The notes under the pieces were generated by a model. The model made no database searches. It was given only the letters and a program-made list of their open reading frames with translations, and was not told the DNA's origin. From NCBI GenBank assembly GCA_029258755.1, contig JAPDKC010000034.1, forward strand, positions 1-32,687: a stretch of 32,687 bases of DNA, in the 5' to 3' direction. Position numbers and translations under genes: made by a program. Shown one piece after another: positions 2,365-28,568 of this stretch (position 1 is its first letter; every line of letters begins with the position of its first letter). The DNA is from an archaeon. GTDB taxonomy: Archaea; Iainarchaeota; Iainarchaeia; Iainarchaeales; DTGL01.

Positions 2365-3309
2365 ATGCAAATAAAACGCCTTGATCTAAAGCTTGGGTTT
2401 GCTTGCAACAATAACTGCTTGAGTTGTCCTCAGGCTCATAGAAGGCATTTAGGCGACCTAACAACAGAGCAAGTTAAAAAGCTTCTTGAAGCTGGCAGAG
2501 AACACGGCGCTAATGAAGTTGTTCTAACTGGTGGTGAACCAACAGTAAGGCCTGATATCCTAGAAATAATTTCTTATGCAAAAAAGCTTGGTTATGAATT
2601 TATTCAGCTCCAAACAAATGGACGAATGCTGTACTATAAGGAGTTTTGTAAAAAGCTAATAAAAGCAGGTGTTACCGAGTTTGCACCAGCGATCCATGGA
2701 CCTAATGCAGAAATACACGATTATCTTGTTCAATCCAAAGGGGCTTTTAGGCAAGCTATTCAAGGGATAAAGAACCTTAAGGAATTGGGCCAATACATCA
2801 TAATGAATTCTGTAATAAATAAAATAAACTACAAATTTTTACCAGAAACAGCAAAGCTTTTTGTAGAGTTAGGCGTTGATCACTATCAGTTTGCTTTTAT
2901 CCATTGTGTTGGAAACGCATGGAAAAATATAGATCTGCTTTTACCTAGAAAAAGCGAGGTTATGCCCTATGTACATAAAGCGCTAGATATTGGCATAGAT
3001 GCTGGCATAAAGGTTATGGTTGAAGCATATCCTTTTTGCTTTATGCGCGGCTATGAAAAATATTGTTCTGAGCTTTATATGCCTCCTTCAGAGATTATGG
3101 ATGCTGAAGGGGTCATAGAAAATTTCGATAAATTGCGCAAAGAGACAGGAAAGCTTAAAGGACCTAATTGCAAACACTGCAAATATGATTTGATATGCGA
3201 AGGTCCATGGAAAGAATACCCGCAAAAATTTGGCTGGTCCGAATTTAAGCCAGTCCCGGGGCCAAAAATAAAGGATCCTAAGGAGATTCTGGGGGAAAAC
3301 GAAGCATAA
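2365..3309 (+). CDS. HxsC-like radical SAM protein 1
   Basis: This 314-residue radical SAM enzyme has the cluster motif CxxxCxxC at C14, C18 and C21 and GGEP at 56-59. QTNGRM and an HG-x-NAEIHDYL stretch follow in the barrel. The C-terminus holds four more cysteines (C225 in PFCFMRGYE, then C269, C272 and C278 in a C-x2-C-x5-C-EG pattern). That is a short Twitch/SPASM-like module able to bind one auxiliary iron-sulfur cluster. The layout, including the HD motif, KGAF, GIKNL and a late PxC followed by CxxC, matches the HxsC family of His-Xaa-Ser maturases, but without its N-terminal extension. It lies 33 bases before the HxsB-like gene, which supports a shared task. The substrate is unknown. 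The HxsC assignment is from remembered family features and is less certain than the radical SAM call. Confidence 0.75.
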   Translation: MQIKRLDLKLGFACNNNCLSCPQAHRRHLGDLTTEQVKKLLEAGREHGANEVVLTGGEPTVRPDILEIISYAKKLGYEFIQLQTNGRMLYYKEFCKKLIKAGVTEFAPAIHGPNAEIHDYLVQSKGAFRQAIQGIKNLKELGQYIIMNSVINKINYKFLPETAKLFVELGVDHYQFAFIHCVGNAWKNIDLLLPRKSEVMPYVHKALDIGIDAGIKVMVEAYPFCFMRGYEKYCSELYMPPSEIMDAEGVIENFDKLRKETGKLKGPNCKHCKYDLICEGPWKEYPQKFGWSEFKPVPGPKIKDPKEILGENEA

Positions 3310-3342
3310 AAAAGCTTACTCACTACTTTATTATAGATTTAA

Positions 3343-4788
3343 ATGCCGATAAGCTATTATGATGCAAACGTTTCGGAAGAATACATACTCAACAATTTTA
3401 ATGTACACAAGTTTGATGAAAACAATTACTTAATTACTACGGAGCACGGCTCCTGGGTATTGCTAAATAAGCAGGAATATGATTTGCTTAGGTTGCACAA
3501 AGTAAGCGAAGATCCTAACCTTTTTAAGGAGCTTAAAGAAAAAGGAATAATTCTTACAGAGGACAATGTTGAGGATGTTATAAAAGCGTATCGCGAAAGA
3601 TACCATTTCCTTTTCCAAGGTCCTTCGCTGCACATAGTAGTGCCTACTCTGCGCTGCAATCAGCGCTGCATATATTGCCACTCAAGAGCAGAGCCTGAAA
3701 GCAGCAAGCACTTTGATATGGATTATGATACTGCTAAAGCTGTTGTTGATTTTATATTCAAAACACCATCGCCAGTTGTCATAATAGAATTCCAAGGTGG
3801 AGACTGCCTGTTGAATTATGAAATAACAGAATTCATCATTGATTATGCAAAAGAAAAAGCAAAACAATGCAAGAAGAAGGTGGGTTTTTCCTTAGTAACA
3901 AATCTTACAAAGATGGACGAAACTATCCTTAAAAGCCTTAAAGAGAGGCATATAATGGGCCTAGCAACATCCTTAGATGGTCCAAAGGAGGTGCATGACA
4001 AAAACAGAAAATATCTTACTGGCAAAGGAACCTATGATGATGTTGTCTATTGGATTAAAAGAATAAAGGAAGAATGGAAATACGATTTCAACCTAAATGC
4101 ATTATGCACAATAACAAGGTATTCATTAGATTATGGAAAAGAGATTGTGGATGAATACATGCGTTTGGGCTTTAATGGTGTTTGGCTGAGGTTCTTAAAC
4201 AATATAGGCTTTGCTTCCGAAGCCTGGAATAGGATTGGCTACTCAGCAAGCGAATATCTAAAATTCTATAAGGAAACACTAGATTATATAGTAGAGAAAA
4301 ATAAAGAGCAAACATATTTTAGCGAATTGATGGCTGTTATATTCCTCAAGAAGATTCTCAGTAAAAGAGACCCAATGTTCACAGATATTCAGAGTCCTTG
4401 CGGTGCTGCTATAGGTCAGCTCCTCTACAAATATAACGGCGATATTCACACTTGCGATGAAGGCAAGCTGTTCGAGGAATTTAAGCTCGGAAATGTTTTC
4501 ACATCCAAATATGAGGACATATACAAGAATGAAAACCTAATAGCGATGATGGATATTTCCTCAAAGAAGAACTATCTTTGCGATAACTGTCCTTGGAATC
4601 CGTACTGTGGAATATGCCCCATCTATACGTATGCTGCACAAGGTACTATAGTTTCAAAGCTTGCCCTTGATGATAGATGTAAGATAATGAAAGGGTTGAT
4701 CAGCAATATATTCGAAAAGTTGCTTTTTTCAAAGGATCATAGGTCAGCGTTTTTCAGCTGGCTTAAGCACGATAAAGTATTTAGCTAG
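3343..4788 (+). CDS. hxsB: HxsB-like radical SAM/SPASM peptide maturase
   Basis: This is a 481-residue homolog of HxsB, the larger radical SAM maturase of the His-Xaa-Ser system. Residues 1-90 form a peptide-binding-like N-terminal region ending in FQGPSLHI. The radical SAM motif is C105, C109 and C112 after PTLRCN. The GGEP position reads GGDC (152-155), preceded by EFQ. A SLDGP motif is at 210-214. The SPASM domain has the full seven-cysteine set: C353 (SPCGAAIG), C371 (TCDEG), C413, C416, C422, C425 and C446. The strings LHIVVPTLRCN, EFQGG, TSLDGP, IVDEY and DIQSPCG are hallmarks of HxsB, and the length is typical. The final base of its stop codon is the first base of the prepilin peptidase start, so the two genes are translationally coupled. 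It is expected to crosslink or epimerise the H-x-S repeat peptide; that chemistry is inferred. Confidence 0.85.
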   Translation: MPISYYDANVSEEYILNNFNVHKFDENNYLITTEHGSWVLLNKQEYDLLRLHKVSEDPNLFKELKEKGIILTEDNVEDVIKAYRERYHFLFQGPSLHIVVPTLRCNQRCIYCHSRAEPESSKHFDMDYDTAKAVVDFIFKTPSPVVIIEFQGGDCLLNYEITEFIIDYAKEKAKQCKKKVGFSLVTNLTKMDETILKSLKERHIMGLATSLDGPKEVHDKNRKYLTGKGTYDDVVYWIKRIKEEWKYDFNLNALCTITRYSLDYGKEIVDEYMRLGFNGVWLRFLNNIGFASEAWNRIGYSASEYLKFYKETLDYIVEKNKEQTYFSELMAVIFLKKILSKRDPMFTDIQSPCGAAIGQLLYKYNGDIHTCDEGKLFEEFKLGNVFTSKYEDIYKNENLIAMMDISSKKNYLCDNCPWNPYCGICPIYTYAAQGTIVSKLALDDRCKIMKGLISNIFEKLLFSKDHRSAFFSWLKHDKVFS

Positions 4789-5855
4789 TGGTTTGCTTGT
4801 TCGAGCTTTTCTTTGTAGTAGCTGTTATAGTTAGCGCCTATATTTCGCTAGAAGATATTGTGAATAAAAGAATACCTAACAAAGCAATACTTGTTCTTCT
4901 TTTTGTAGGGATTTTATATCAGGCAATTTATGTGCAAAAATTTTCAGCGATAATCCTTTTCATATATGCAGCGATGATAGCGTTCTTGCTTTGGTTTCTT
5001 AGCCTATGGCCAGCCGGCGATGCTAAACTTTTTGCAGTCCTGCTCCTTTTCATGCCACCACAGCTTTATGTCTCGCAAACCATAGTGTTTGATTTCCTGG
5101 TGAATTGCTTCGTTCCGATATTTTTCTCCATGTTTTTCATAATAATCTGGAAGAGCAGATTTAAGCTTGTAAAAGAAGCATTGAGGTTTACTTTCGAGCC
5201 TTATAACGTTTGCATGCTTGCAATAATCCTTATAGGCTTCGTATGGTTTTTGATGCGAGCAATCCAGATCCTAACATTTAGGTTTTCGCTTCCTCTGGAT
5301 TATTTCCTAACGCTTATTCTCATGTTTTTTATATTTGAATTTTTTAGGAGGTTCTTGAGTGCGAAGCTTGAGCTCTTTTTCTTTGGATGTGCTATTCTTA
5401 GAATAATAATCGATTACCGCACTGTTTACTCCATAGCCTTTCTACAAAGATTTTCTACGCTACTCCTTATCTTTCTATTCTTCCGTTTCTTTATCCTATA
5501 CCTAGCGTTTAAGCTTTATACCTATGAAGTTCCGATAAGAAAGCTTAAACCTGGTATGAGCCCCGGCGAAGCAATAATTCAAAGAGGTAAACATTTTGAG
5601 AGAAAAAGCTTCTTACATGCAAGCCTTATAGGATTCATGCTTCAAAGAAGAGAAAATGTTATACACAGCCTGGATTTTCTCACAGAGGATGATGTGAAAA
5701 GGTTGAAGAAGCTTAGGGCCGAAAAAAAGATTCCTTTTACAAAGATGCTTATAACCAAAGTGCAGCCATTCGCGATATTCATACTTTTAGGCTATATTCT
5801 TACAGTTCTTTGTCATGGAAATTTCATGCAGTATCTAGTCAGCTTATTAAAATAA
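4788..5855 (+). CDS. Archaeal type IV prepilin peptidase-like aspartyl protease (A24)
   Basis: This polytopic membrane protein belongs to peptidase family A24. The first catalytic aspartate is D23 in LEDIVNKRIPN, and the second is D78 in the GDAK motif. The C-terminal part, with LKPGMSPGEA, then a TEDDVKRLKKL stretch, then PFAIFILLGYILT, matches the archaeal A24 C-terminal type II domain. Its length of 355 residues fits that subfamily. It starts at a GTG overlapping the HxsB stop by one base, so the two are probably co-translated. The family cuts class III signal peptides of pilins and archaellins at the cytoplasmic face. Coupling to HxsB suggests that a modified peptide, or the pilin-like protein at 10268, is its substrate. 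The 3' end overlaps the convergent gene at 5813 by 43 bases. Confidence 0.8.
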   Translation: MVCLFELFFVVAVIVSAYISLEDIVNKRIPNKAILVLLFVGILYQAIYVQKFSAIILFIYAAMIAFLLWFLSLWPAGDAKLFAVLLLFMPPQLYVSQTIVFDFLVNCFVPIFFSMFFIIIWKSRFKLVKEALRFTFEPYNVCMLAIILIGFVWFLMRAIQILTFRFSLPLDYFLTLILMFFIFEFFRRFLSAKLELFFFGCAILRIIIDYRTVYSIAFLQRFSTLLLIFLFFRFFILYLAFKLYTYEVPIRKLKPGMSPGEAIIQRGKHFERKSFLHASLIGFMLQRRENVIHSLDFLTEDDVKRLKKLRAEKKIPFTKMLITKVQPFAIFILLGYILTVLCHGNFMQYLVSLLK

Positions 5856-6904
5856 TCTTTAAGATAGAGCATGCTTGCCTTAAAGATATTTGCCAGGATT
5901 GTTTGGTTTGCCTCGCAAGGAGTCCAGCAGAGCTTGCATTTTTCCACCTTTTTTCTTACTGAATCTGAATTTTTGGATAAAACTATCTCGGTAAGGTTGT
6001 AGCTATTGTTCCTCAAATTTCCAACAGAATGGTTAAGCACAATGCATGGATAAACAGTACCGTAAGGATCTATAAAGCAAGAGCAACTCAGCGCGCAGCA
6101 TTTAATCGAGGAATAAGGGTTTTTATCTGCAAGCGATAGGTATAAATCGCCCAAGAATTTTTCTGCTGAAAGCGCATGCTTTCTTGCTTTGCGAATATTT
6201 GATAACTCCCTATACAAATTTTTTCTAAAATTTCCATACAGTTTGCGCATTTCAGGATTTGAATAATAATGCTCTGACACATGGAAAAACGTGATGTAAA
6301 AATCGTTTGCACTTACGTCTAACTCGCTTTTTGCCTCTTCTACAGTTTCTTCAAACATTCCAAGATTAAAAGGGCTTAGGGTGAACTCAAAAAATACTTT
6401 AAAATTTCTAAATTCGCTTTCTAGCTCTTTAAGCAAAGAAAATGTTTTTATGCATTTTTTCCAAGCATCGCTAGTGCCGCGTATCTCATTATGCAGGTTT
6501 TTCGGACCATCTAAGCTTATCGTGATGCAGGTCTTTCTTATACCAAGCTCGCATATTCTTCTTACCTTTTTGTATATTCTGTTTGGAATTGAACCATTCG
6601 TTGGAATATTTAAGATGAAAGGATTGCAGAATTCCTTAATGACGCTAGCGATCTTATCAATATCTTCTCTTAAAAAAGGTTCTCCGCCAGTTAAGCTTAT
6701 CCATTGCAAATAGCTTGCTTTTGAAAATATCTTTCTAATCTCTTGTAAGCTTAGCTCTTCTTTCTTTGGTTTCTTCCAAATATTGCATGTTTTACACCTA
6801 TAATTGCATCTATAGGTTATTGCAAAATTTACCTTAAAAGGTTTCTTGGGTTTTACAAGATTTGCTAAAGCGATTGTTTTTAGAAAGCAAAACCAATCAC
6901 GCAT
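5813..6904 (-). CDS. Radical SAM protein with C-terminal SPASM-like region
   Basis: The protein has 363 residues. The radical SAM motif is at C33, C37 and C40 (YRCNYRCKTC), with LTGGEPF next and SLDGP in mid-barrel. The C-terminal region is cysteine-rich: a CC and CSC group, PYGTVYPC, then CKLCWTPCEANQ, which is consistent with auxiliary clusters of the SPASM/Twitch group. SPASM enzymes mostly modify peptides or proteins, but many archaeal members sit in surface-polysaccharide loci, and this one is the last gene of a glycosyltransferase operon (7609-9273, then 6909-7604). There are four bases between it and the GT2 gene. A role in modifying a sugar or a glycosylated surface protein is as likely as peptide maturation. 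The specific substrate is not recognisable. Confidence 0.75.
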   Translation of the reverse strand: MRDWFCFLKTIALANLVKPKKPFKVNFAITYRCNYRCKTCNIWKKPKKEELSLQEIRKIFSKASYLQWISLTGGEPFLREDIDKIASVIKEFCNPFILNIPTNGSIPNRIYKKVRRICELGIRKTCITISLDGPKNLHNEIRGTSDAWKKCIKTFSLLKELESEFRNFKVFFEFTLSPFNLGMFEETVEEAKSELDVSANDFYITFFHVSEHYYSNPEMRKLYGNFRKNLYRELSNIRKARKHALSAEKFLGDLYLSLADKNPYSSIKCCALSCSCFIDPYGTVYPCIVLNHSVGNLRNNSYNLTEIVLSKNSDSVRKKVEKCKLCWTPCEANQTILANIFKASMLYLKDYFNKLTRYCMKFP

Positions 6905-6908
6905 AGCA

Positions 6909-7604
6909 TCACTTCAAAAATTTCCTAAAGGAAATCTTGATGAGCTGAATAAAGAAATATGTGCCGTGCGTTAATGTTTTCATCTTAGAGCTTCCGTAGC
7001 GCCTCCTTCTATAATACACAGGGACATCAACAATCTTTAAGCCAAGCCTTGATGCTTCTGCAAGCATTTCAAAATCAGGCCAACTGTTTTCTTTAAGCTT
7101 CATTCTCTTGAAATGTTCTCTCGCAAACGCTTTTGTTCCGCATAACGCATCGCTAATTCTCTGACCTAATAAAAATGATAGCGCTAAAGCAAATAGCTTG
7201 TTTCCTATAATATGCAAAAGAGGCATTGCTTGCTTTTCCATAGGGATTAAAAATCTGCTCCCATTTGCAAACACATTCCTATCTTTTTCCACAGCATGCA
7301 AAAATTTTTTTATTTCACTTGCATCAACCGAGCAATCAGCATCGAACGTAACTAATATTTTACCTTTTGCTATGCTTGCTCCTTTTCGCAAAGCATAGCC
7401 TTTGCCTTTGTTATGCTTATAGGAAACAAGCCTAACGTTCTTATGCCTTTTAGAAAGTTCTCTTACGATGTTAGCTGTATTGTCAGTGCTTCCATCATTA
7501 ACAACAATAATTTCCACATCTGGAACATTTTTCATAATCTCCATAATACAACGTTTTATTCCTTGTTCTTCGTTGTATGCAGGGACTATTATACTGCACC
7601 TCAT
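6909..7604 (-). CDS. Family 2 glycosyltransferase, dolichyl-phosphate sugar synthase type
   Basis: This 231-residue GT-A fold enzyme starts with IIVPAYNEE and has VVNDGSTD (nucleotide-sugar binding, D37) and FDAD (metal-binding DxD at 88-90). A GTKAFARE acceptor-side motif lies in the second half. The arrangement and length match dolichyl-phosphate mannose/glucose synthases (DPM1/Alg5-like), which load a sugar from a nucleotide donor onto a polyprenyl phosphate at the cytoplasmic face. There is no C-terminal membrane anchor. It is four bases from the upstream membrane glycosyltransferase gene, which would use such a lipid-linked sugar, so the two probably form one glycosylation step pair. Confidence 0.85.
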   Translation of the reverse strand: MRCSIIVPAYNEEQGIKRCIMEIMKNVPDVEIIVVNDGSTDNTANIVRELSKRHKNVRLVSYKHNKGKGYALRKGASIAKGKILVTFDADCSVDASEIKKFLHAVEKDRNVFANGSRFLIPMEKQAMPLLHIIGNKLFALALSFLLGQRISDALCGTKAFAREHFKRMKLKENSWPDFEMLAEASRLGLKIVDVPVYYRRRRYGSSKMKTLTHGTYFFIQLIKISFRKFLK

Positions 7605-7608
7605 CCAA

Positions 7609-9273: not shown

Positions 9274-9294
9274 AATTCAAAGTTATATTAAAAT

Positions 9295-9304: not shown

Positions 9305-9321
9305 GCGATTATATCGAAAGG

Positions 9322-10267: not shown

Positions 10268-10717
10268 GTGAGAATCATGAAGATGAAGACACTGAAAAAG
10301 GCCTTGAAAAACAAAAGATATGGCATACCAATAGCGTTTCTTTTAGTGATTCTTATAGGAGGCATCTTCTATTACATACAGGAATCTTATATACTCTCTC
10401 AAATCTTTGTAGCTGAAAGAGAAAACTGTGTGCTTGAATATGGCAATTGGGAATGTGTGGATGGCAAAATAGCAATACCGTTCTATAACGCTGGCGAGAA
10501 GGACATAACATTCACAAGTGTCACAATTCCAGTAAGAAATGGGGAAAACATATATAATGTTGATGAGCCTCTGAAATCAGGAAGCACGGGCGTACTTATA
10601 ACAGCAAACTGCGATGAAATAGTTTCAGAGAACTTTATATTAAAATGGTGCTGTGGCGATAAGTGCTTTGTAGCACCTATGGATAGGCCGGACTCTAACA
10701 TTACCCTAATGCGTTAG
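10268..10717 (+). CDS. Small membrane-anchored, pilin-like protein of unknown function
   Basis: The 149-residue protein has a basic N-terminus, KNKRYGIP, then a hydrophobic segment at about residues 19-38, then a polar region with predicted strands and six cysteines, including a CCGDKC group. The layout of basic residues, a glycine, a hydrophobic helix and a beta-rich outside domain is that of archaeal pilin-like proteins, and KRYG/IPIA could be a class III cleavage site, but no pilin family is recognised. The GTG start abuts the stop of HxsC-like 2; an ATG at 10277 or 10283 would do equally well. A methyltransferase gene follows after eight bases. It is either a substrate of the neighbouring enzymes or a membrane partner. 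Confidence 0.6.
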   Translation: MRIMKMKTLKKALKNKRYGIPIAFLLVILIGGIFYYIQESYILSQIFVAERENCVLEYGNWECVDGKIAIPFYNAGEKDITFTSVTIPVRNGENIYNVDEPLKSGSTGVLITANCDEIVSENFILKWCCGDKCFVAPMDRPDSNITLMR

Positions 10718-16704: not shown

Positions 16705-17757
16705 TTAGGGGAGCTTTTTGAATATTTTCCAACACTGTGGGTCGGGCATGTTTAGGGAGCCAAAATATCCGTAGCTTATGCATTTTGCACCTCCCAAGCA
16801 TTTATTCCAAAACTCGCAATTTTGACATGCGTTGCTCGGTTTTTGAGAGGCTCTTATTCTTTTAATCGCATCTGAATGATAATATATCTTGTAAAAACCA
16901 TCTTTTAATATATTTCCAAGGAGTATTGGAAGGCGCCTGCAAGCATATACATCCCCGTTTGGCAGTATGGAAAAAGAGTAGTAACCAGCGTTGCAGCCGT
17001 GAGGCTCATAGCATTTTTCCTGTGCAATTATGCTATCTTCACAGCCGAACATTATATGGAGCTTTATGCCTTTGTTTTGTAGCTCACGGTTTTTTTGCAA
17101 AAGGGAGAGATAAAGCTCCCTAACTTGCAAAGGCTCCAGCATCTTATCTTTTATTGCTTTGCCTCTTCCAATAGGCACGAACCTGCGAATTCCTAAATAG
17201 TTTATCCCTTTTTTTATGCAAAAACCTATAAGCTCATTGATGCCGGTTAAGTTTTCTTTTGTTATTGTTGTTGAAATTAAAACAGCGATCCCCTGGTTTA
17301 TTAGCATATCTATGCCCCTCTCCGCCTTTTTAAAACTTCCTTTGCCACGAATTTTATCATTTGTTTCACCTACTCCTTCGAGACTTATCTGGACTGCTTT
17401 TATACCCAACTTTTTCAACTTTTTTGCCACAGGTTTTGTAATAAGCGTTCCATTGCTCATAAGACCGTAGCGCAATTTTCCCCTATGTTTTTTAAGCAAC
17501 CCTAACAAATCGAATAAATCCTCCCTAACTAGCGGCTCACCACCTGAAATTGAAATCAGATTATTCTCTCTTGGTATTTCCCATTTTTCAGTTATTTCTA
17601 GGTATTGATAAAAAATTTCTGTGAGCTGCTCAAAACTTAGTTCGTTTTTAGTAAACTCTTTATTAAAATAACAGTGTTTACAACTCAAATTACACCTTTC
17701 TGTTATATGCCATTGCAAATGGAAAGAAGGAGGTATTAATTTATGTTCTTCTTCCAT
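16705..17757 (-). CDS. Radical SAM/SPASM peptide-modifying enzyme
   Basis: This 350-residue enzyme resembles the PqqE/MftC/heme-d1-type SPASM group. The radical SAM motif is at C22, C26 and C29 (RCNLSCKHC), with SGGEPLVRED and SLEG next. The C-terminal SPASM domain shows C-NAGYYSFSILPNGDVYAC, then CQNCEFWNKCLGG-AKC, then a final C. On the minus strand a strong GGAGG lies 11 bases before the ATG, unlike the leaderless genes, which is consistent with an internal operon gene. It overlaps the upstream radical SAM gene by 17 bases. It is the last of four genes that also include a CPBP protease, which fits RiPP maturation. The substrate is probably the peptide at 21750, by proximity only. Confidence 0.8.
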   Translation of the reverse strand: MEEEHKLIPPSFHLQWHITERCNLSCKHCYFNKEFTKNELSFEQLTEIFYQYLEITEKWEIPRENNLISISGGEPLVREDLFDLLGLLKKHRGKLRYGLMSNGTLITKPVAKKLKKLGIKAVQISLEGVGETNDKIRGKGSFKKAERGIDMLINQGIAVLISTTITKENLTGINELIGFCIKKGINYLGIRRFVPIGRGKAIKDKMLEPLQVRELYLSLLQKNRELQNKGIKLHIMFGCEDSIIAQEKCYEPHGCNAGYYSFSILPNGDVYACRRLPILLGNILKDGFYKIYYHSDAIKRIRASQKPSNACQNCEFWNKCLGGAKCISYGYFGSLNMPDPQCWKIFKKLP

Positions 17758-19474: not shown

Positions 19475-20749
19475 TTAAAAATGATTTTTAATAAGATGGA
19501 TTAAATAATTATAGAACAACCTTTGTTTAACTTCACATTTTTTCTTAGGTTGCTTAAAAATATCGCCTGTTAGCCTTAGAGAATGTGCAGCACAACCTCC
19601 TGCACAGGTCCATCTTAATAGGCAATTTCTGCAGTAGGAGAGATTTTCAACACGTCTTTTTTTCATCCAGGCTATTTTTTTCTGATCGAATTTAAAAGCA
19701 GATCCATTGAAGCGTCCATATATAAACTCACGGTGGCCTACTTTGGAAGATACTGTTTCATAGCAATTTGACACAAAGCCATCTGGTGTTAGGCAGAACA
19801 TTATATTTGAAAAACCACATCCTTGAGGCTTTCCTTGTGTAGATGGAAACATCTGGGGTGATAATAGGAGTAGTCCGTGGCTATCGGCCCAAATGCGTGC
19901 TTTCAAAAAATATTTCGCAAAAAGATCGAGATCTACACCATATTCTTTCTTCTTTATTACGGGATTCATGCCTATAATTTTGACTCCCAATTTACGGAAA
20001 TAATTTACTATCTCATCCATTCTGAGAACAGAATAAGCCGTAATTGTGCACATAACGTGAAAGGCCATATTGTGTTTTACGAAAAATCTAATGGTTTTTT
20101 CAACAATAGGGCTGCTTTCTGAACCATTTTTCAAAGGTCGTTGTTTATTTTGTATTTCTGGTGGTCCGTCACATGAAATGATTAAATAATCTGTATTTTT
20201 TAATACCCATCGTCTCGTGGCTTTGTTCATGATCCCATTAGATTGTAGTATGATTTTTACATTATTACATTTTTTTTTAGCGTATTCTATAATCTCTGAG
20301 ATAAGTTCCTTTTCTATTAATGGTTCTCCGCCTCCATGAAAACATATTTCCAAAGAATTTGTGGTTGCGACTAAATCAACAGCTTTTTTTGCTATTTCTA
20401 CATCAAGCTTATAATTGTATTCGTTAGGGCGAGCATAACAATAGATGCAGCTAGCGTTACATTGCGTAGTTGGGAAAATATGAAGTTTTGATGAACTGAT
20501 TTGAGAAAAATTTTTGTATTCGATCCACTTTTTTAGAAACCATGGTGTGACATCAACAATCCCCTCTACTTTCCTCTCTTTTTTAAGCTTTTTTTTCTCT
20601 AATGGGGTTAATTCATAAAGAGCCCCTCTTATTGGCGAGAAATAGTAGCTTTTTCCTTTTTTTTCAAATATTTTCTTAAAATCAAAGACTTGATCAATAA
20701 AAGTGCTGTTTAGAGGAGGAGGTTTGTATACCTTGATAAGTCTCCCCAT
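19475..20749 (-). CDS. Radical SAM/SPASM peptide maturase (anSME-like)
   Basis: The 424-residue protein has residues 1-90 as an N-terminal region (YYFSPIRGALYELTPLEKKKL) comparable in position to the leader-handling region of peptide maturases. The radical SAM motif is at C97, C101 and C104 (CNASCIYC), then FHGGGEPL and SCDGPP. The SPASM domain has the seven-cysteine layout GCGFSN, NC, then CRNCLLRWTCAGGC, then a final KKKC. It resembles anaerobic sulfatase-maturase-like and quinohemoprotein-maturase-like peptide modifiers. It is the first gene of a minus-strand operon with the CPBP protease and two further radical SAM genes. It lies 16 bases downstream of the unknown membrane-anchored gene. 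Confidence 0.8.
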   Translation of the reverse strand: MGRLIKVYKPPPLNSTFIDQVFDFKKIFEKKGKSYYFSPIRGALYELTPLEKKKLKKERKVEGIVDVTPWFLKKWIEYKNFSQISSSKLHIFPTTQCNASCIYCYARPNEYNYKLDVEIAKKAVDLVATTNSLEICFHGGGEPLIEKELISEIIEYAKKKCNNVKIILQSNGIMNKATRRWVLKNTDYLIISCDGPPEIQNKQRPLKNGSESSPIVEKTIRFFVKHNMAFHVMCTITAYSVLRMDEIVNYFRKLGVKIIGMNPVIKKKEYGVDLDLFAKYFLKARIWADSHGLLLLSPQMFPSTQGKPQGCGFSNIMFCLTPDGFVSNCYETVSSKVGHREFIYGRFNGSAFKFDQKKIAWMKKRRVENLSYCRNCLLRWTCAGGCAAHSLRLTGDIFKQPKKKCEVKQRLFYNYLIHLIKNHF

Positions 20750-20765
20750 AACAACACTTAAGTTT

Positions 20766-21662
20766 TTACTTAAGATAGTGGTCTAATAATATTTTAAACA
20801 GTAACTTTTGGCAAGAAAGATCTTTTATGTTTGTATATCTTTTTTTAAACACTTCTCTTAATAGTTCAAAGTCCTCTGAAGAAAGTTTTGATCTTTTTGT
20901 ACATAGCCATAATACTAAGTAATAATTGTAAGTGTCGCAAATTGTGAGCCGTCCCACTAACTCAGTAGGGTTTGCAAATAAACATATTTTATCTCTTATT
21001 TTTGATAAATCCTCTACGAGTCCTAGATTGGCCAGTTTTCGTTCAATTTTGAATTTTGTACAAGATATCCTTGTCCTTAAAACAGGGTCAAGAATGTTAT
21101 GATCAAATTCAATTATCTTTTTTGTGATATTAATTTCTTTAAGTCTATCTTTTTTTCCACAATTTGACTCTGCCACAATAAAGCCATACAAATCATCTAT
21201 GTTATTTTCTCCGATATCTTCCTTCTTAAAATGATTGAACCAATAATCTAATGACTTTGTAAATGAGCTTGGAAAAGTTTTGTAAAAATAGTTTGGCGAT
21301 TTACCAAGTTTTTCGTAACTATACTTTTTAAGTATACAATAAGGTGCTAAAGTATGAATTGCACTACATTTGGTATCTGAGCATTCTTCCAAAAAAGCTT
21401 TGTCAGCCATAGATAAAAGAGTTTCCATTTCTTTGAAGGATATAGAATCTTTTCTTAGTAATATATAGTAGTAAATTTGTTCAACAGACAAATTATTTTT
21501 GTCTAGAATTTTTGTATCTAACTCTTCATAATACCTAGATTTTTCATTAATAATTCTTATGAGTTCAAATTTTTCACTAAATAAAAAATTCGATATTATA
21601 TATCCAAAAATTATAATGCCTGCAATAATGAGAAATAACAAAGCAAATTTTTTATGTAACAT
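20766..21662 (-). CDS. Membrane-anchored protein of unknown function
   Basis: The 298-residue protein is not recognised. Residues about 6-27 form one hydrophobic N-terminal segment after a short basic start, so it is probably a signal anchor with the rest outside. The remaining about 270 residues look mainly helical and contain about ten cysteines (for example ECSDTKC, CGKK, ISCTK, TICDT and LCTK), which could form disulfides. It sits between the H-x-S precursor and the radical SAM/CPBP operon, on the same strand. A role in transport, display or self-protection linked to the peptide is possible but unsupported by any motif. Confidence 0.6.
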   Translation of the reverse strand: MLHKKFALLFLIIAGIIIFGYIISNFLFSEKFELIRIINEKSRYYEELDTKILDKNNLSVEQIYYYILLRKDSISFKEMETLLSMADKAFLEECSDTKCSAIHTLAPYCILKKYSYEKLGKSPNYFYKTFPSSFTKSLDYWFNHFKKEDIGENNIDDLYGFIVAESNCGKKDRLKEINITKKIIEFDHNILDPVLRTRISCTKFKIERKLANLGLVEDLSKIRDKICLFANPTELVGRLTICDTYNYYLVLWLCTKRSKLSSEDFELLREVFKKRYTNIKDLSCQKLLFKILLDHYLK

Positions 21663-21686
21663 ATGTCTAATTCTTGTCTGTAAATG

Positions 21687-21695
21687 CTTTTAATT
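21687..21695 (-). promoter_or_regulatory. TATA-like box of the unknown membrane-anchored gene
   Basis: The minus strand reads AATTAAAAG, centred 29 bases upstream of the start codon ending at 21662, within the 87-base gap after the precursor gene. Confidence 0.35.
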
Positions 21696-21749
21696 ATTTT
21701 TCATTTAAAAATGTAACTAGTTTCTTGTTGTTTTTTACTTTTACTAACT

Positions 21750-22247
21750 TTAAAATGCATAACAGCAAAAAATACAACTATAATGACTAGCATGGCTGCT
21801 GTGCGAACCATGGCTCGAATGACTTCCATGTGAACTATGCGAAGAATGACTTCCATGCGATCCATGGCTGCTATGTGAGCTGTGACTTCCGTGCGAAGAA
21901 TGGGATCCATGAGAGCTATGACTCCCATGTGAGCTGTGAGACCCATGACTCGAATGCGAACTATGTGAACTATGACTCCCATGAGAGCTGTGAGAAGCAT
22001 GACTCGCATGCGATGCATGGTGTCCGTGTCTAGCGGTTATGCTGCCGGAATCCCAACTTACTCTAAAAGAATTTGTATGGGTAGCTGCGACTTCTGGCAA
22101 AAGATTTAATATTGAGATCGAGCCTAAAAACGCACCTAAACTGAGCATCTTGTGTTTGGATATAGCTCCTCTTTCCTCTAAAAGGAATGACTTTAAAGTT
22201 TTTTTGATCTTTGGAGTAAGCTCTTTGGCTTGTTTTTTTGCTTGCAT
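21750..22247 (-). CDS. hxsA: His-Xaa-Ser repeat precursor peptide, HxsA-like
   Basis: The 165-residue protein has three parts. Residues 1-30 are a charged, helical leader (KKQAKELTPK, LLEERGAIS). Residues about 34-50 are hydrophobic (LSLGAFLGSISILNLL) and end near PEVAA, a possible signal-peptidase site. Residues 77-157 are 27 uninterrupted H-x-S triplets (HSS, HGS, three HAS at the start, then HAS and HYS at the end), followed by CIFCCYAF. This matches HxsA, the repeat peptide of the His-Xaa-Ser system, whose maturases are in the same window. Serine codons of both AGY and TCN types are mixed, so the repeats are not recent DNA copies. A TATA-like box lies 28 bases upstream, which suggests separate, strong expression. 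A plain His-rich metal-binding protein is the main alternative. Confidence 0.85.
   Translation of the reverse strand: MQAKKQAKELTPKIKKTLKSFLLEERGAISKHKMLSLGAFLGSISILNLLPEVAATHTNSFRVSWDSGSITARHGHHASHASHASHSSHGSHSSHSSHSSHGSHSSHGSHSSHGSHSSHGSHSSHSSHGSHGSHSSHSSHGSHSSHGSHSSHASHYSCIFCCYAF
21777..22019 (-). repeat. 27 tandem nine-base codon triplets encoding H-x-S
   Basis: The stretch encodes 27 consecutive His-Xaa-Ser triplets without interruption. At DNA level the units are only partly alike because synonymous codons vary. The second residue is mostly Ser or Gly, with Ala at both edges and one Tyr at the end. Confidence 0.9.
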
Positions 22248-22270
22248 CTATTAGATAATGTTCACTACCT

Positions 22271-22280
22271 ATTTAAAATA
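22271..22280 (-). promoter_or_regulatory. TATA-like box of the H-x-S precursor gene
   Basis: The minus strand reads TATTTTAAAT, centred 28 bases upstream of the start codon ending at 22247, in a gap of only 36 bases after the preceding radical SAM gene. This indicates transcription of the precursor independent of the upstream maturase. Confidence 0.5.
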
Positions 22281-22283
22281 TTT

Positions 22284-23132: not shown

Positions 23133-23188
23133 AGATAACTATATACTATAAATACCAATAAAAATTGTTTTTAGGTCAAAGTTTGATA
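23133..23188. promoter_or_regulatory. Divergent promoter region between two HxsC-like genes
   Basis: The 56-base spacer holds CTATAAATA at 23146-23154 facing the plus-strand gene and an AT-rich CAATTTTTATT on the minus strand about 30 bases before the other gene. Opposite genes driven from one short region could be co-regulated. Confidence 0.35.
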
Positions 23189-24064
23189 ATGTCTACAATA
23201 ATTCCTGTTAATAGAGAATGCAACCTTAATTGCCTGTACTGTAGCTCTTTTTATGAAAAGCCAGCAAGCAAAGAAGAGATAATTAAGCAAATATTGAATG
23301 AAAAGGACCAGATTGTTTTTACAGGCGGCGAACCCTTACTATGCAAGGACCTTTTAAGGTATATAAAGCTTGCAAGAATGCAAGGTATTAGTGAAATAGA
23401 ACTTCAATCAAATGGAACGCTTTTTTATTACAACGATGTTGCAAAGAAGCTTGTTAAGGCAGGCGTTACGATCTTCAATATAGCTTTACCATCGCACAAA
23501 AAGAACATCTGCGAGCAGATAACCCAAACAAAAGGTCTTTTTGAGAAGCGCATAGTTGGTATTAAGAATTTGCTTTCATTAGGAGCAAATGTGAGAATAA
23601 CTCTTGTTATATGCACCCTGAACAAAGACTATCTTTATGACTATGCAAAGTTTGTATATAAAAACTTTCCAGGGATAAAAATACTCGAATTTAATACGGT
23701 AAAGCTCCGTGGCAGATGCTTGGAAAATAAATGGCTTGTGCCAAATCTAAATGAATTGGATGATCAGCTTTATAAGGCAATGGATTTTTGCGACAAGAAG
23801 GGGTTAAATCTGCTTGTAGATGGCATACCACTATGCCATATGCAGGGCTTTGAGAAATATTCTGTTGATCTGAGGAAGATAATAAGCGCTAAGCTTTCAC
23901 GCTTGCACGCGGAAAAGGAAAAAGCCGAGGAATGCAGTAAATGCTCCTTAAATAAACTTTGTCTTGGTTTGAGGAAGGGCTACTTAGAATTGCACGGAAG
24001 CAAACAGGTAAAACCAAGCAATAAGGATCCTGAGGAGATTATAAGACTTCTTAAAGCTCCTTAA
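23189..24064 (+). CDS. HxsC-like radical SAM protein 5
   Basis: The 291-residue protein is taken from the ATG at 23189; an in-frame TTG at 23165 would add eight residues but is unlikely. The radical SAM motif is C11, C15 and C18 (CNLNCLYC), then FTGGEPLLCKD and QSNGT. The segment ALPSHKKNICEQITQTKGLF replaces the usual HD stretch. Auxiliary cysteines are in IPLCHMQGFEKY and CSKCSLNKLCLG. It is diverged from the other paralogs (no HD, no NGRM) and is read away from paralog 4. The 3' end overlaps the convergent paralog 6 by 14 bases, the only place where two paralogs end on each other. Confidence 0.75.
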   Translation: MSTIIPVNRECNLNCLYCSSFYEKPASKEEIIKQILNEKDQIVFTGGEPLLCKDLLRYIKLARMQGISEIELQSNGTLFYYNDVAKKLVKAGVTIFNIALPSHKKNICEQITQTKGLFEKRIVGIKNLLSLGANVRITLVICTLNKDYLYDYAKFVYKNFPGIKILEFNTVKLRGRCLENKWLVPNLNELDDQLYKAMDFCDKKGLNLLVDGIPLCHMQGFEKYSVDLRKIISAKLSRLHAEKEKAEECSKCSLNKLCLGLRKGYLELHGSKQVKPSNKDPEEIIRLLKAP

Positions 24065-24983
24065 GCCCATTTATCCTTTCTCCTAAAATAGGTTTTACTT
24101 CCTCAAAGCCGAATAAGTCAGCATAATCATAGCGTATGCCTGCACAAAGCTTGCTATACTTGCATTTTTCGCATTGCGGCGCTCTTACCTTTTCTTCCTT
24201 TGCTTTATCATCCAAATTTGTTTCAAAGCCAGGACCAGCTACCTTAGTACGCAAAGGGTTAAGCTCGGTTGTTGCATATCTTTCATAACCTTTCATAAAG
24301 CATGGAGGAATACTTACAGTAACAACCTTATCAAGCCCATAATCTTCAATTATATCAATAGCTTCCTTAACATAAGGTACCGCTTCACTAAGCCTAACAA
24401 CAACATCATCCTTGTATACTAATGCGTTTCCAATATAGCTGGGGAATATGAGCGTGAATTGCGATATTCCTAAGTCAATAAAAAATTTGATCATCTGAGG
24501 CAAAAATCTATAGTTTTGCTTGTTTATAAGAATATTTACCTCAACGGTTCTGTTGAATGATTTTACATTCTTCAGGCCGGTGATTGTTTGGTTGAAAGAG
24601 CCGGGAACTTGCGTTAGAAAATCATGAATTTTGGCTTTATGAGCGTTTATCGTAAATTTGAAATAGTTAGCACCGGCTTCTATAATTCTCTTTGTAAACG
24701 CTTTATTAGCAAACATCCTTCCATTCGTTTGTATGCGTACAGTTCTGAAGCCCTGCTTTGATGCAAATTCAACCAACTCGAAGATATCTTTCCTTATTGT
24801 AGGTTCGCCACCAGTAAAGCCAAGTATTTCTGCACCTATCTGCTTCGCTCGCAATATATCCTGCTTTATCTCTGCTGTAGTTTTGTTAAATCTCCTCTTT
24901 TCGAAATCTATGGAGCAGAATCTACAATTGTTATTGCATGCATAACCTACAAGCACCTCATACAATGCTATCTTTTTCTCCAT
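24051..24983 (-). CDS. HxsC-like radical SAM protein 6
   Basis: The 310-residue protein has C16, C20 and C23 (CNNNCRFC), FTGGEPTIRKD, QTNGRMFAN, a NAHKAKIHDFL segment with PGSF, and an IPPCFMKGYERY plus CEKCKYSKLCAG auxiliary module. It is the last gene of the six-gene minus-strand operon. Its ATG directly follows the TGA of the cysteine desulfurase gene. It is most like the proteins at 2365, 9353 and 26859. Confidence 0.75.
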   Translation of the reverse strand: MEKKIALYEVLVGYACNNNCRFCSIDFEKRRFNKTTAEIKQDILRAKQIGAEILGFTGGEPTIRKDIFELVEFASKQGFRTVRIQTNGRMFANKAFTKRIIEAGANYFKFTINAHKAKIHDFLTQVPGSFNQTITGLKNVKSFNRTVEVNILINKQNYRFLPQMIKFFIDLGISQFTLIFPSYIGNALVYKDDVVVRLSEAVPYVKEAIDIIEDYGLDKVVTVSIPPCFMKGYERYATTELNPLRTKVAGPGFETNLDDKAKEEKVRAPQCEKCKYSKLCAGIRYDYADLFGFEEVKPILGERINGLKEL

Positions 24984-26234
24984 TCATTTCACTTTTTCTA
25001 GCAACTTTTCGAGCTCATAAGTGAAGATGTCTATTTCTTCTGGCGTGTTATAAAAGTATAAGGATGCCCTCAGAGTTCCTTCCCCTTTACTTGGATTCAT
25101 GCCTAAGAAGTAATGTAAAGGATTTGCGCAATGAGCTCCAGCGCGGAGCATAATTTTATACTTTTTAAGTTCGGTATCAAAGTACTCTGCAACATCCTTT
25201 GGACTTATGGTTTTTTCTAAAATTAATGAAAATGTTGCAACCCGCTTTTTTACATCAATGGGTCCAACAACCCTTACTTCACTAATTTGCGAAATATTTC
25301 TCATCATCTTTTTACATAGTTTTTGTTCCCTTTCCTCAATATTTTCCATCCCTATTTTTTTCAAGTAATTTATTGCGGCTCCCGTGCCTATAATAGCGGC
25401 ATAATCTTGCAGGCCTGCCTCAAACCTTTTTGGCGCTGGCAAGAAATCAGGAAGTAGCTGACCATTTCTATATACAACATCCTTAATTGTATCACCACCG
25501 ACCATAAATAGCTTTAATTCGTTCAATACGTCTTCTTTTCCATAGAGGATGCCCAAAGCAGGTCCAAGCATTTTATGCATGGAAAAGCAATAAAAGTCAG
25601 CATCAAGCTTTTTCACGTCTATTGCTTTGTGAGGCGCGTATTGTGCGCCATCTACTAAAGCTAAAGCATTGTTTTCATGAGCGATCTTTATGATCTCTTT
25701 TACAGGAAGTATTGTTCCAGCAACGTTTGATGCATGCGTTATTGCAACAATAGCTGTGTTTTCATCTATCTTTTCAGCAAACCTTTCAGCATCTATCGTA
25801 CATTCTTTGCTGCATTCAACAATTCTTAGCTCAGCTTGTGTTTCGGAGCATCTTTTATAAAAGGGCAAAAGTAAGCTATGATGATCTAAAATGCTACATA
25901 CAACATTTTGCTCTTTCTTAATCCTTAAAGAATTTGCTACCAAGTTTATAGCTTCTGTTGTATTCTTGGTCCAAACAATTTCGCTAGGGAGAGCTTTTAT
26001 AAATTTAGCTAGCTTCTCACGAGCTTCTTGGCATTTCTCCTCCGTTTCCTTGCTGAAATAATGCGAGCTTCTTTTTCCTGCGCAGCCAGGGTGATTCTTC
26101 AGATAATCCACGATAGCATCTACAACACAATTAGGCCTAAGCGTATTGCAAGCATTATCGAAATATATTACGCGCTTTCCTTCGATCTTTTTATTTAATA
26201 CAGGGAAATCCTCCCTAATCTTTAACCAATCCAT
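24984..26234 (-). CDS. SufS/CsdA-type cysteine desulfurase
   Basis: This is a PLP-dependent class V aminotransferase of 416 residues, the normal length for SufS/CsdA. The PLP lysine is K221 in SMHK. D195 in VDGAQ stacks on the cofactor ring side, and H118 lies in LDHHS. The active-site cysteine is C369 in RAGAHCANPL. It removes sulfur from cysteine to give alanine and an enzyme persulfide, which feeds iron-sulfur cluster assembly. No SufE or scaffold gene is near. Position inside an operon of radical SAM genes suggests a dedicated sulfur supply for their clusters, or sulfur insertion into the product. It overlaps the gene at 26222 by 13 bases. Confidence 0.9.
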   Translation of the reverse strand: MDWLKIREDFPVLNKKIEGKRVIYFDNACNTLRPNCVVDAIVDYLKNHPGCAGKRSSHYFSKETEEKCQEAREKLAKFIKALPSEIVWTKNTTEAINLVANSLRIKKEQNVVCSILDHHSLLLPFYKRCSETQAELRIVECSKECTIDAERFAEKIDENTAIVAITHASNVAGTILPVKEIIKIAHENNALALVDGAQYAPHKAIDVKKLDADFYCFSMHKMLGPALGILYGKEDVLNELKLFMVGGDTIKDVVYRNGQLLPDFLPAPKRFEAGLQDYAAIIGTGAAINYLKKIGMENIEEREQKLCKKMMRNISQISEVRVVGPIDVKKRVATFSLILEKTISPKDVAEYFDTELKKYKIMLRAGAHCANPLHYFLGMNPSKGEGTLRASLYFYNTPEEIDIFTYELEKLLEKVK

Positions 26235-26851
26235 GATTGCACCTTTTTTACAAGAAAGTGTTCCTTATTTAGGGACCATATATATCCTTCAGGACCAAAA
26301 CTCCTTAATACAACTCCTTTTTCCATAAGTTTTTTTCCAGTTAGCATAACATCATCGCTTTCAACGCAATGTGCGCATATATCCTTAAATTCAGGAGAGT
26401 TTTTCAATTCTAGAATCTGCTTGGTTGTTGCTTTCCCGACCTTAAGCAGTATTTCAATCATACAGCGTTCATTGTCGGTAATAAGGTATTTGCCAGTAAT
26501 AGGGCTTATCTCTCCTTCACCATACTTCTCAATGTAGCTTTTCCATAATCCGCTGCATTTTTCATAATATTTGCATTCCTTGCATTTTTTAGGCTTAACC
26601 TTCTCATCGTTTTTTACTTCCTTTATGTATCGCTTATATCCAACTAGAAAGCAATAGGGTATGTTTTCCACAACAACATCTATGTTTCGCAGTATGCATT
26701 CATCTATAAGCTCACTTAACCTTTCTGAAGCTTTGCTTAAGGAAAGATCACTATCCTTTGGAAAAACTATTGTTAGCTTATTAAAAGAACGATTCCTTAT
26801 AAACTTGCCTAAAAGCTCTAAGGAGCTTTTATACAACTCTATTTTTTTCAT
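26222..26851 (-). CDS. HxsC-family protein lacking the radical SAM core, with a winged-helix-like tail
   Basis: The 209-residue protein matches the C-terminal half of the HxsC-like paralogs. Residues 10-75 align with their second barrel half, ending in IPYCFLVGYKRY (C67), and C90, C93 and C99 form the CKECKYYEKCSG group. No CxxxCxxC or GGEP exists, and the upstream gene ends only eight bases away, so no missing half is encoded in the same frame. Residues about 126-195 look like a winged helix (ERCMIEILLKVGKATTKQIL, LTGKKLMEKGVV, YIWSLNKE) with a CAHC pair at 159-162. The four-cysteine module could bind one iron-sulfur cluster. It may be a regulator sensing iron, oxygen or peptide, or a recognition subunit of the neighbouring enzymes. 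Confidence 0.7.
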   Translation of the reverse strand: MKKIELYKSSLELLGKFIRNRSFNKLTIVFPKDSDLSLSKASERLSELIDECILRNIDVVVENIPYCFLVGYKRYIKEVKNDEKVKPKKCKECKYYEKCSGLWKSYIEKYGEGEISPITGKYLITDNERCMIEILLKVGKATTKQILELKNSPEFKDICAHCVESDDVMLTGKKLMEKGVVLRSFGPEGYIWSLNKEHFLVKKVQSWIG

Positions 26852-26858
26852 AGGATCA

Positions 26859-27815
26859 CTAATATTCCTGAAGCCTTATCTCTTCCTCCGTTATATATCT
26901 GCCCTCAATTGGTTTAAACTCTTTGAAGCCCATAAATTTCGTATATTCTTTGAATGGTCCAACACATACCAAATAATACCTGCACTTTTTGCATTCAGGT
27001 CCTTTATTTCTATATTTATGCCTATTCGTTTGAATGTCCATCCTAAATTTAGGACCTATTAGTATAGTGTCTGTTTTTGTAAGCTCAGACATTAGAGAAA
27101 CATGTTCTGGAAGAATACAAGGATATAAATTATGTAAGAAAGGTTTACCTCCGCCCTTCAACAAAATATTACAAGCTTCACTGATATAAGGAGCCGCCTC
27201 ACTCATCCTTGGCACCATCTCTTTAAAATTTTGCCTTGCAAACCCATCAGGGATAGCGAAATTTAGATGGTAGCTTTTTGTGTTCTTCCTAAACCTTAGC
27301 AAGAATCTGGCCATCTCTGGAAGTAGCTTATAATTATACCGGTTTATTACAGTGCTTGTCCTTTTCTCAACGTTGAGATCCTCAAGATTCTTTAATCCTT
27401 GCACTTTTTCTTCAAAAGAACCCTTGACTTGGGTTAGAAAATCCTCAAGCTCTGCATTTGGTGCATGGATTGAGACCAAAACCCTATTCACGCCAGCTTC
27501 AACAAGTTTTTCCACGTAGCTTCTGTATTTGAGCATGCGACCGTTAGTTTGTATTTCTATTACCTCAAAGCCAAGTTTTTTAGCATAGGCAATTGCTCTA
27601 AACAAATCCTTTCTTATTGTTGGCTCGCCACCAGAAAAAGAGATTATGTTGGCGTTTCTTCTTTTTGCATACTCAATATCTTTCTTTATCTCTTCCCAAC
27701 TTTTTACACTACCGTCGCTAACTAGCTTATGTCCTACAGAGCAGAATATGCAACGCTGGTTGCATTGCCAGTTCATTAGTATTTCTACCTTAGAGTGTCT
27801 TTCTTCCTCAACCAT
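26859..27815 (-). CDS. HxsC-like radical SAM protein 7
   Basis: The 318-residue protein has C18, C22 and C25 (CNQRCIFC), FSGGEPTIRKD, QTNGRMLKY, a HAPNAELEDFL stretch and KGSF. The auxiliary module differs slightly: the first cysteine is in LYPCILPEH, followed by CKKCRYYLVCVG. It is the third gene of the operon after the two HxsD-like genes, 32 bases from the second, and eight bases ahead of the radical-SAM-less relative. That order suggests a functional unit of HxsD, HxsD and HxsC. Confidence 0.75.
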   Translation of the reverse strand: MVEEERHSKVEILMNWQCNQRCIFCSVGHKLVSDGSVKSWEEIKKDIEYAKRRNANIISFSGGEPTIRKDLFRAIAYAKKLGFEVIEIQTNGRMLKYRSYVEKLVEAGVNRVLVSIHAPNAELEDFLTQVKGSFEEKVQGLKNLEDLNVEKRTSTVINRYNYKLLPEMARFLLRFRKNTKSYHLNFAIPDGFARQNFKEMVPRMSEAAPYISEACNILLKGGGKPFLHNLYPCILPEHVSLMSELTKTDTILIGPKFRMDIQTNRHKYRNKGPECKKCRYYLVCVGPFKEYTKFMGFKEFKPIEGRYITEEEIRLQEY

Positions 27816-27847
27816 GTTTCCCCAAATTTAAATTAATAAAATAAAAT

Positions 27848-28078
27848 TTAAAGCGCTGAGCCCTTAAGCAATGCCAAAAGCAGATTGCAATATTCCAATG
27901 CAAGCTTTTCAGCATCGTATTTGCTTTCAATTGTAATGTGGAAATAAGCTTCTTCCTCCCTTGCTTTTATCTTAGCTTCCTTAAGCATTTTAGATGCTTT
28001 ATCAATAACCTCCTTGGAATAAAAAGCCTTGGAAAGCTTCAGCTCAGCACAATTCTTGCTGCAAAGCTTGATGCACAT
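27848..28078 (-). CDS. Short HxsD-like protein
   Basis: The 76-residue protein is predicted to contain an N-terminal strand and helix (LKLSKAFYSKEVIDKASKML), a central strand (AYFHITIESKYD) and a final helix (AEKLALEYCNLLLALLKG). The order and spacing match the first half of the adjacent HxsD-like protein, so it seems a shortened paralog. Four cysteines are present, three of them in the first ten residues. Its ATG follows the TGA of the upstream gene after one base, showing translational coupling. HxsD is an accessory protein of unknown mechanism in the His-Xaa-Ser system, and a peptide-carrying or peptide-recognising role is a guess. Confidence 0.6.
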   Translation of the reverse strand: MCIKLCSKNCAELKLSKAFYSKEVIDKASKMLKEAKIKAREEEAYFHITIESKYDAEKLALEYCNLLLALLKGSAL

Positions 28079-28079
28079 A

Positions 28080-28568
28080 TCAATCCTCTAGTTCTGTGGG
28101 TTTTTTCAGTCCTTTCGCTTTTTCTGGTGTCCATGGCTTTGCTATGCCTTCAGGATCCTCTATAAACAAATCCTCCTCTTCAGGCATCTCTATCTCCTTA
28201 GCTTTCTCCTTGAGGGTTTCCTCACATTCAGCACAGTATTCTTCCTCGGCCAAGTTTGTTGCCAGAGCGCGCTTAATGATAGCTTCTCTAACAGCTTGAT
28301 TTCTTGCTGCCTGAACAGCATAAGTAGCGTAATTTATTAGCTCATCGTGCAACTGCAAAGCTATCTTTTCAAGCTCTTTTTTTCCTATCTTGGAATCCTT
28401 CGCCCTTATTATAACCTTAATTTCCTTTTCAGGATCCCCATCTAGAATAAAATATGCTTTGTCCAATAGCACATAACAAGCAGCATAGACAACCTCTAAC
28501 GGATATACCTTTGGATTTATGGTTACAATTGCCTTTGCCTCTTTCGGAAAAAGCTCTATATTTTTCAT
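28080..28568 (-). CDS. hxsD: HxsD-like protein
   Basis: The 162-residue protein has residues 12-75 giving a strand, helix and strand with FPKEAKAIVTINPKVYPLEVVYAACYVLLDKAYFIL and IKVIIRAK. Next comes the helix LQLHDELINYATYAVQAARNQAVREAIIKRAL. This matches the HxsD family, in which a strand-helix-strand unit is followed by an NELLDQ-like stretch, an R/E-rich turn and a helix ending in I-x-x-A. The C-terminal about 45 residues are acidic, with a CAEC pair, and are not part of the usual family. It is the first gene of the minus-strand operon. The assignment relies on recalled family features and should be confirmed by profile search. Confidence 0.65.
   Translation of the reverse strand: MKNIELFPKEAKAIVTINPKVYPLEVVYAACYVLLDKAYFILDGDPEKEIKVIIRAKDSKIGKKELEKIALQLHDELINYATYAVQAARNQAVREAIIKRALATNLAEEEYCAECEETLKEKAKEIEMPEEEDLFIEDPEGIAKPWTPEKAKGLKKPTELED

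Follow-up and report, generated by a model that had tools for sequence, protein, structure and literature searches.

Components of an archaeal Hxs system

The 32,687-nucleotide stretch of DNA analysed here (the window; contig JAPDKC010000034.1 of assembly GCA_029258755.1, Iainarchaeota) encodes an archaeal counterpart of the bacterial His-Xaa-Ser (Hxs) peptide-modification system. It comprises a repeat precursor (HxsA), the radical S-adenosylmethionine (SAM) maturase HxsB, a set of HxsC-type radical SAM enzymes and two HxsD-like proteins, together with an A24 prepilin-type peptidase that is co-inherited with HxsB and belongs to a clade of its own. We favour, with a probability of roughly 0.55, the reading that this is an archaeal Hxs variant in which radical SAM enzymes modify the precursor in the cytoplasm, the dedicated peptidase removes its leader, and the product is displayed on the cell surface or released.

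The window is an entire contig (C9) of a draft genome of 1.21 Mb (71 contigs, 93.7% complete). A scan of named genomes found counterparts of its HxsB in two metagenome-assembled genomes titled Candidatus Diapherotrites archaeon (89% and 77% identity), and the archaeal setting is therefore sound. The first-pass annotation, made from the sequence alone, had proposed an archaeal, multi-enzyme system spread over 26 kb, with a precursor of 27 H-x-S triplets, one HxsB-like enzyme and two HxsD-like proteins, and our analysis supports each of these points; the parts are indeed scattered over 26 kb and do not form a compact cluster. The idea that all four components would exceed their profile cut-offs held in part. 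HxsB and the short HxsD (with HxsD_rel) pass, as nominally does HxsA (with HxsA4, in its repeat only), whereas HxsC and, narrowly, the long HxsD fall short (Table 1).

The precursor starts with a leader (residues 1-27) ending in EERG, followed by a conserved A-I-S-K-H, a hydrophobic stretch, VAA, the H-x-S units and a Cys-containing tail (YSCIFCCYAF). The 27 units occupy residues 77-157 without a break, and the longest H-x-S run in shuffled sequences of the precursor's own composition was 4. No second array of at least four units was found elsewhere in the genome, and a reversed-pattern control gave zero. The units are encoded by 22 different 9-mers, and serine codons alternate between AGY and TCN in 17 of the 26 adjacent unit pairs, so the array is maintained at the protein level, selection having preserved the pattern as the DNA drifted, and is not a young DNA duplication. 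The HxsA4 match is confined to the repeat part. The HxsA3 match covers the leader and part of the core, across nearly the whole length of the model; since this model matches the archaeal leader, albeit below its cut-off, related leaders were evidently already known to the NCBIfam curators.

Comparison of 16 archaeal precursors gave a common plan, namely an amphipathic leader, [ED]-[EN]-x-[G/A], x-[IVL]-[ST]-[KRE]-[HQEW], a hydrophobic stretch, [V/A/S]-x-A (in nearly all) and the H-x-S core. The leader is like a prepilin signal in having G or A at -1 (16/16 at the proposed cleavage position) followed by a hydrophobic helix, and a site resembling that of signal peptidase I is present as well. 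Searches of plasmids with the archaeal leader gave no match. A diverged precursor of 279 aa with PHSSS-type repeats lies beside HxsD- and HxsB-like genes in the genome G075 (L091:5337-6176, where L numbers denote single loci); its leader is close to a classical prepilin signal, with the break between NEG and SVSEW.

For HxsD, a second copy is present in relatives as well. We considered whether HxsD has a leader-binding fold, and did not retain this idea: the AlphaFold model, built from a single sequence, has a mean confidence (pLDDT) of 69, and its PDB matches are weak (E above 0.01) and include RNA polymerase subunit K and Pcc1. A search of the HxsD profile against PDB sequences likewise returned nothing credible (best E 0.01). 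As the matches of the model are only weak, we make no claim on the fold.

The HxsC-type enzymes

Seven HxsC-type proteins are present, in agreement with the first-pass annotation, which had regarded them as copies of HxsC. All score below the TIGR03977 cut-off of 267.9 bits (six at 101-120 bits and one, C4, at 204 bits), a cut-off that no genome among the 87 surveyed in the phylum reaches, and all seven keep the CxxxCxxC and C-terminal CxxCx5C motifs. In a tree that included eight bacterial HxsC proteins, only C4 grouped with these, together with its orthologues from relatives (support 100/100), whereas C1, C2, C3 and C7 each formed an orthologous group of their own, common to other genera. 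The same result was obtained without a DUF483-like row (G014_L094_3652) and two other long rows. C1, C2, C3, C6 and C7 match HxsC4 (NF038332) best, all under its cut-off of 500. The set is thus best described as one HxsC orthologue, six separate archaeal HxsC4-like paralogues and one C-terminal fragment. Conservation of this fragment in the sister species (G013) makes it likely that it functions as an accessory protein and is not a degraded remnant.

Sets of five to eight HxsC copies were found only in the window's family (f1) and in a distant relative, G086; no comparable expansion was seen in the f5 genomes. The G086 contigs C28, C29 and C5 (L045, L093, L120) carry eight HxsC-type matches, along with a second HxsD and a precursor whose middle region is rich in Cys.

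A dedicated A24 peptidase co-inherited with HxsB

The A24 gene follows HxsB directly, its GTG start overlapping the HxsB stop codon (TAGTG). Three or more A24 genes, as counted with PF01478, were found in 16 of the 20 HxsB-positive genomes and in 3 of the 67 HxsB-negative ones (Fisher p = 3e-11, which is only a guide, as the genomes are related and the counts not independent). In a tree of 36 proteins, the 16 Hxs-linked A24 proteins formed one clade (97/99) apart from the two housekeeping A24 groups found in these same genomes, with one long-branch protein placed beside the clade at weak support. Members retain both Asp motifs, that is, the first Asp and W-[PS]-A-[GA]-D-[AS]-K-L, and the C-terminal domain is weakly of archaeal type. 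The gene adjoins HxsD/HxsB in the window's family and in families f5 and f10, and lies within the same cluster in G086; eight bacterial plasmid loci showed no annotated prepilin peptidase close to HxsB. The third A24 peptidase, co-inherited with HxsB, is new here. The first-pass annotation had listed the prepilin peptidase, a CPBP protease, a cysteine desulfurase and glycosyltransferases as genes mixed in with the system. All are present, but they are not equivalent: the A24 peptidase is the most consistent extra partner of the system and no incidental neighbour, whereas the CPBP protease and glycosyltransferases are not conserved beside it.

A further candidate in the window was u10268, a membrane-anchored protein whose model consists of a 33-residue N-terminal helix and a beta sandwich. 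The best PDB match of the model is the type IV pilus of Pyrobaculum calidifontis (8fk7, E 4e-5), and the archaellum protein FlaF is also listed. The protein has six invariant Cys and occurs once per hxs cluster, in family f1 only. We rejected it as a shared A24 substrate: it is absent outside f1 and, as the prepilin-type G/A is not conserved, it is no obvious common substrate of the A24 clade. A scan of the f5 clusters for pilin-like signal peptides gave no shared small candidate.

Distribution and gene order in the phylum

HxsB, counted at E <= 1e-60, is present in 20 of the 87 genomes, spread over several families. Profiles found HxsA in 18 and HxsD in 17 genomes, all within these 20. As for the HxsA-less cases, in G013 the sequence ends after C4, just where HxsA would be expected, and G075 has diverged beyond the reach of the HxsA and HxsD profiles, although HxS repeats are visible in its cluster.

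The genomes of f5, a distant family, have a compact order, with a giant membrane-anchored protein, A24, HxsD (in some, a second one), HxsB, HxsA, a non-HxsC radical SAM enzyme and an NHL-repeat protein. The giant surface protein has about 2250 aa, and the precursor, with about three HxS units, is the sole small leader-bearing protein of the operon. In the window's family, A24, HxsD, HxsB and HxsA are joined by C1, C2, C4 and u10268, and by C7 in most clusters. Among plasmids, 521 records have matches to HxsB-like genes, Klebsiella accounting for 322, and one plasmid hxs cluster (L068) lies near mercury-resistance genes on a conjugative plasmid.

Proposed pathway and alternatives

In the pathway we propose, the HxsD pair would use the conserved leader to present the precursor to HxsB and the HxsC-type radical SAM enzymes for modification of the H-x-S array in the cytoplasm. 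The likeliest chemistry would be that of three-residue cyclophanes, with His (i) bonded to the Ser (i+2) beta carbon. The hydrophobic stretch would insert the precursor into the membrane, the dedicated A24 peptidase would cut the leader between E-E-x-[G/A] and x-[I/L]-[S/T]-K, and the modified array would be displayed on, or released from, the cell surface; it is the dedicated prepilin-type peptidase that points to membrane processing and surface display. More specifically, and only tentatively, the modified HxS peptide may itself be a surface subunit of prepilin-like type, which the dedicated peptidase would process to leave a repeat cross-linked through histidine and anchored in the membrane or in a filament.

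In favour of this pathway are the HxsB score, the co-inheritance of HxsA, HxsD and the third A24 gene with HxsB, the placing of that gene in hxs clusters, the separate A24 clade with its Asp motifs, the f5 precursor as sole small leader-bearing protein, the invariant [G/A], the bacterial plasmid loci without an annotated prepilin peptidase by HxsB, and the existence of radical SAM enzymes that connect i with i+2. Several observations weigh against it. Arg or Lys occupies +1 of the proposed cleavage site in f5/f10 and G086, and these residues are unusual at this position among known archaeal prepilin sites. In one cluster of the relative G016 (L051), serine often stands at i+1 and not at i+2, with the His period of three retained. 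The enzymes that make three-residue cyclophanes are not close kin of HxsB (GrrM/OscB 63 bits, YhhB 57 bits), and the genome counts all come from related genomes. Finally, the [V/A/S]-x-A that precedes the core in nearly all precursors suits signal peptidase I. This bears directly on the alternative that leader and hydrophobic stretch together make up a conventional Sec signal, extended in its N-region, which signal peptidase I would cleave at [V/A/S]-x-A; the A24 peptidase would then have a different substrate within the cluster, such as u10268 or a large surface protein. Bacterial HxsA and HxsA2, which start with plain signal-peptide-like N-termini, and the pilin fold predicted for u10268 speak for it as well. 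However, u10268 is limited to f1. Members of the A24 clade go with HxsB in f5, f10 and G086 too, and nothing pilin-like that compares with u10268 was found there. The [G/A], moreover, is invariant in the precursor but not conserved in u10268. We regard this alternative as rather unlikely, though the most serious of those considered.

It seems improbable that the H-x-S proteins are exported without modification and serve as His-rich metal binders, with the radical SAM enzymes acting elsewhere, for example on the Cys-rich proteins nearby. Dense histidines could bind metal without any modification, and both the Cys-rich proteins and extra radical SAM genes are close by; against this, precursor, HxsB and HxsD are strictly co-inherited, the precursor adjoins HxsB in the f5 operons, and bacteria show the same precursor-HxsB pairing. 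A recent bacterial insertion or a binning error might be suspected in a draft of this kind, in which the window makes up one whole contig, but this explanation is already largely refuted, and we give it hardly any weight: synteny is kept in several relatives, including the named Diapherotrites genomes, the A24 C-terminal domain is of archaeal type, and the system is distributed across several families of the phylum.

Questions about the product and role of Hxs systems become narrower with the archaeal variant, given its dedicated prepilin-type peptidase. The compact f5 operons, with their short precursor and single extra radical SAM enzyme, offer a small gene set to express, and the seven-enzyme, 27-unit version lends itself to asking whether the additional HxsC paralogues target different positions or carry out different chemistry. 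If the modified peptide does prove to be a prepilin-like subunit, it would represent a peptide natural product of a new type, in which pilus-type processing is combined with radical SAM chemistry.

Other genes in the window

The SufS-type cysteine desulfurase is an accessory: a desulfurase was found at this place only in the sister species, and was not recognised in the clusters of the relatives G014-G016. In G015, the interval from C7 to the next HxsC paralogue holds a DUF483-type protein (L042:7803-8576) in place of the desulfurase and the HxsC fragment, and a similar-looking protein lies at the corresponding place in G014 (L094:3652-4587). Four more SPASM enzymes had also been claimed in the first-pass annotation; a Pfam SPASM domain is present in the radical SAM protein at 16705, the only one of the four scanned with Pfam. 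The radical SAM enzyme near the precursor has 424 aa (19475-20749), and its counterparts near the precursor in relatives have 611-651 aa, with an extra C-terminal part (L042, L046, L051, L097).

At the place matching that of the large Cys-rich secreted proteins, relatives have a related protein, which reaches about 1970 aa; the giant surface protein of the f5 operons does not match it. The CPBP protease and the glycosyltransferases seem to be chance neighbours. CPBP, FemAB and epimerase genes were not recognised beside the hxs systems of relatives, where a methyltransferase and glycosyltransferases were matched only in part. The contig begins (3-830) inside a protein with VGIGTTSPxEKLxVxG repeats, typical of tail-fibre/adhesin proteins, and a Cys-rich end.

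Table 1. Features of the window, with profile scores and placement.
Feature	Coordinates	Strand	Remarks
HxsC4-like paralogue C1	2365..3309	+	Adjoins HxsB; NF038332 151 bits; group in three genera and G086
HxsB radical SAM/SPASM maturase	3343..4788	+	TIGR03978 445 bits (cut-off 370, passed)
A24 prepilin-type peptidase	4788..5855	+	PF01478 32.5 bits (cut-off 26.5); GTG start
HxsC4-like paralogue C2	9353..10267	+	NF038332 156 bits; one orthologue by the family's hxs clusters
Membrane-anchored pilin-fold protein u10268 (predicted)	10268..10717	+	Starts directly after C2; model pLDDT 84
HxsC-type paralogue C3	14404..15282	+	NF038332 118 bits, TIGR03977 112 bits; orthologue in G015
Further radical SAM/SPASM-type enzyme	19475..20749	-	Near precursor; NF047865 115 bits
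Protein with one N-terminal hydrophobic stretch	20766..21662	-	No family matched; near precursor in relatives too (L042, L046, L097)
HxsA-type precursor	21750..22247	-	165 aa; HxsA4 58.2 bits (cut-off 55), HxsA3 39.2 bits (cut-off 65)
HxsC orthologue C4	22284..23132	-	Directly upstream of precursor; TIGR03977 204 bits
HxsC-type paralogue C5	23165..24064	+	TIGR03977 106 bits; orthologue at the same place in G013
HxsC4-like paralogue C6	24051..24983	-	NF038332 139 bits; orthologue at the same place in G013
SufS-type cysteine desulfurase	24984..26234	-	TIGR01979 398 bits (cut-off 475); between C6 and HxsC fragment
HxsC C-terminal (auxiliary-cluster) part without SAM domain	26222..26851	-	C-terminal matches only (NF038332, TIGR03977)
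HxsC4-like paralogue C7	26859..27815	-	Adjoins HxsD pair; NF038332 140 bits; orthologues in three genera
HxsD-like, short form	27848..28078	-	NF038315 (HxsD_rel) 43.7 bits (cut-off 41, passed)
HxsD-like, long form	28080..28568	-	TIGR03976 44.7 bits (cut-off 50, narrowly missed)
Large Cys-rich secreted proteins	28672-30261 and 30288-end (32687)	+	Divergent from HxsD operon; first without Pfam family

Comparison with known systems

In the literature searched, which covered few subscription papers, we found neither a characterised Hxs product nor a radical SAM peptide pathway that includes a prepilin peptidase. Among the NCBIfam models, HxsA4 (in the repeat) and HxsD_rel are passed, whereas the HxsA3 and HxsC4 cut-offs are not reached; the NCBIfam curators had therefore seen related variants before. 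The Hxs-linked A24 peptidases share with archaeal FlaK/EppA-type enzymes the PF01478 domain, the first Asp, the [G/A]-D motif and, weakly, the archaeal C-terminal domain. They differ in forming their own clade, in having W-[PS]-A-[GA]-D-[AS]-K-L in place of GGGD/AGGD, and in being tied to hxs genes.

With respect to chemistry, radical SAM enzymes that link an aromatic residue i to the beta carbon of i+2 are known, including for Phe-Ser, as are triceptide (three-residue cyclophane) motifs containing His (PMC11002830). The H-x-S unit has the matching i/i+2 spacing, a likeness in how the systems may work and not in kinship.

The closest known relative is the bacterial Hxs system, with which the window has in common an HxsB that passes the curated cut-off, an orthologue of HxsC, homologues of HxsD and an H-x-S repeat peptide of exported type. 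In bacteria the locus is a compact hxsD-hxsB-hxsC group, the HxS arrays are short and HxsC carries an N-terminal extension of about 100 aa, and the archaeal leader differs from the N-termini of bacterial HxsA and HxsA2. In contrast, the window has 27 units, an HxsC without the extension, six paralogues of it, two HxsD forms and a dedicated A24 peptidase.

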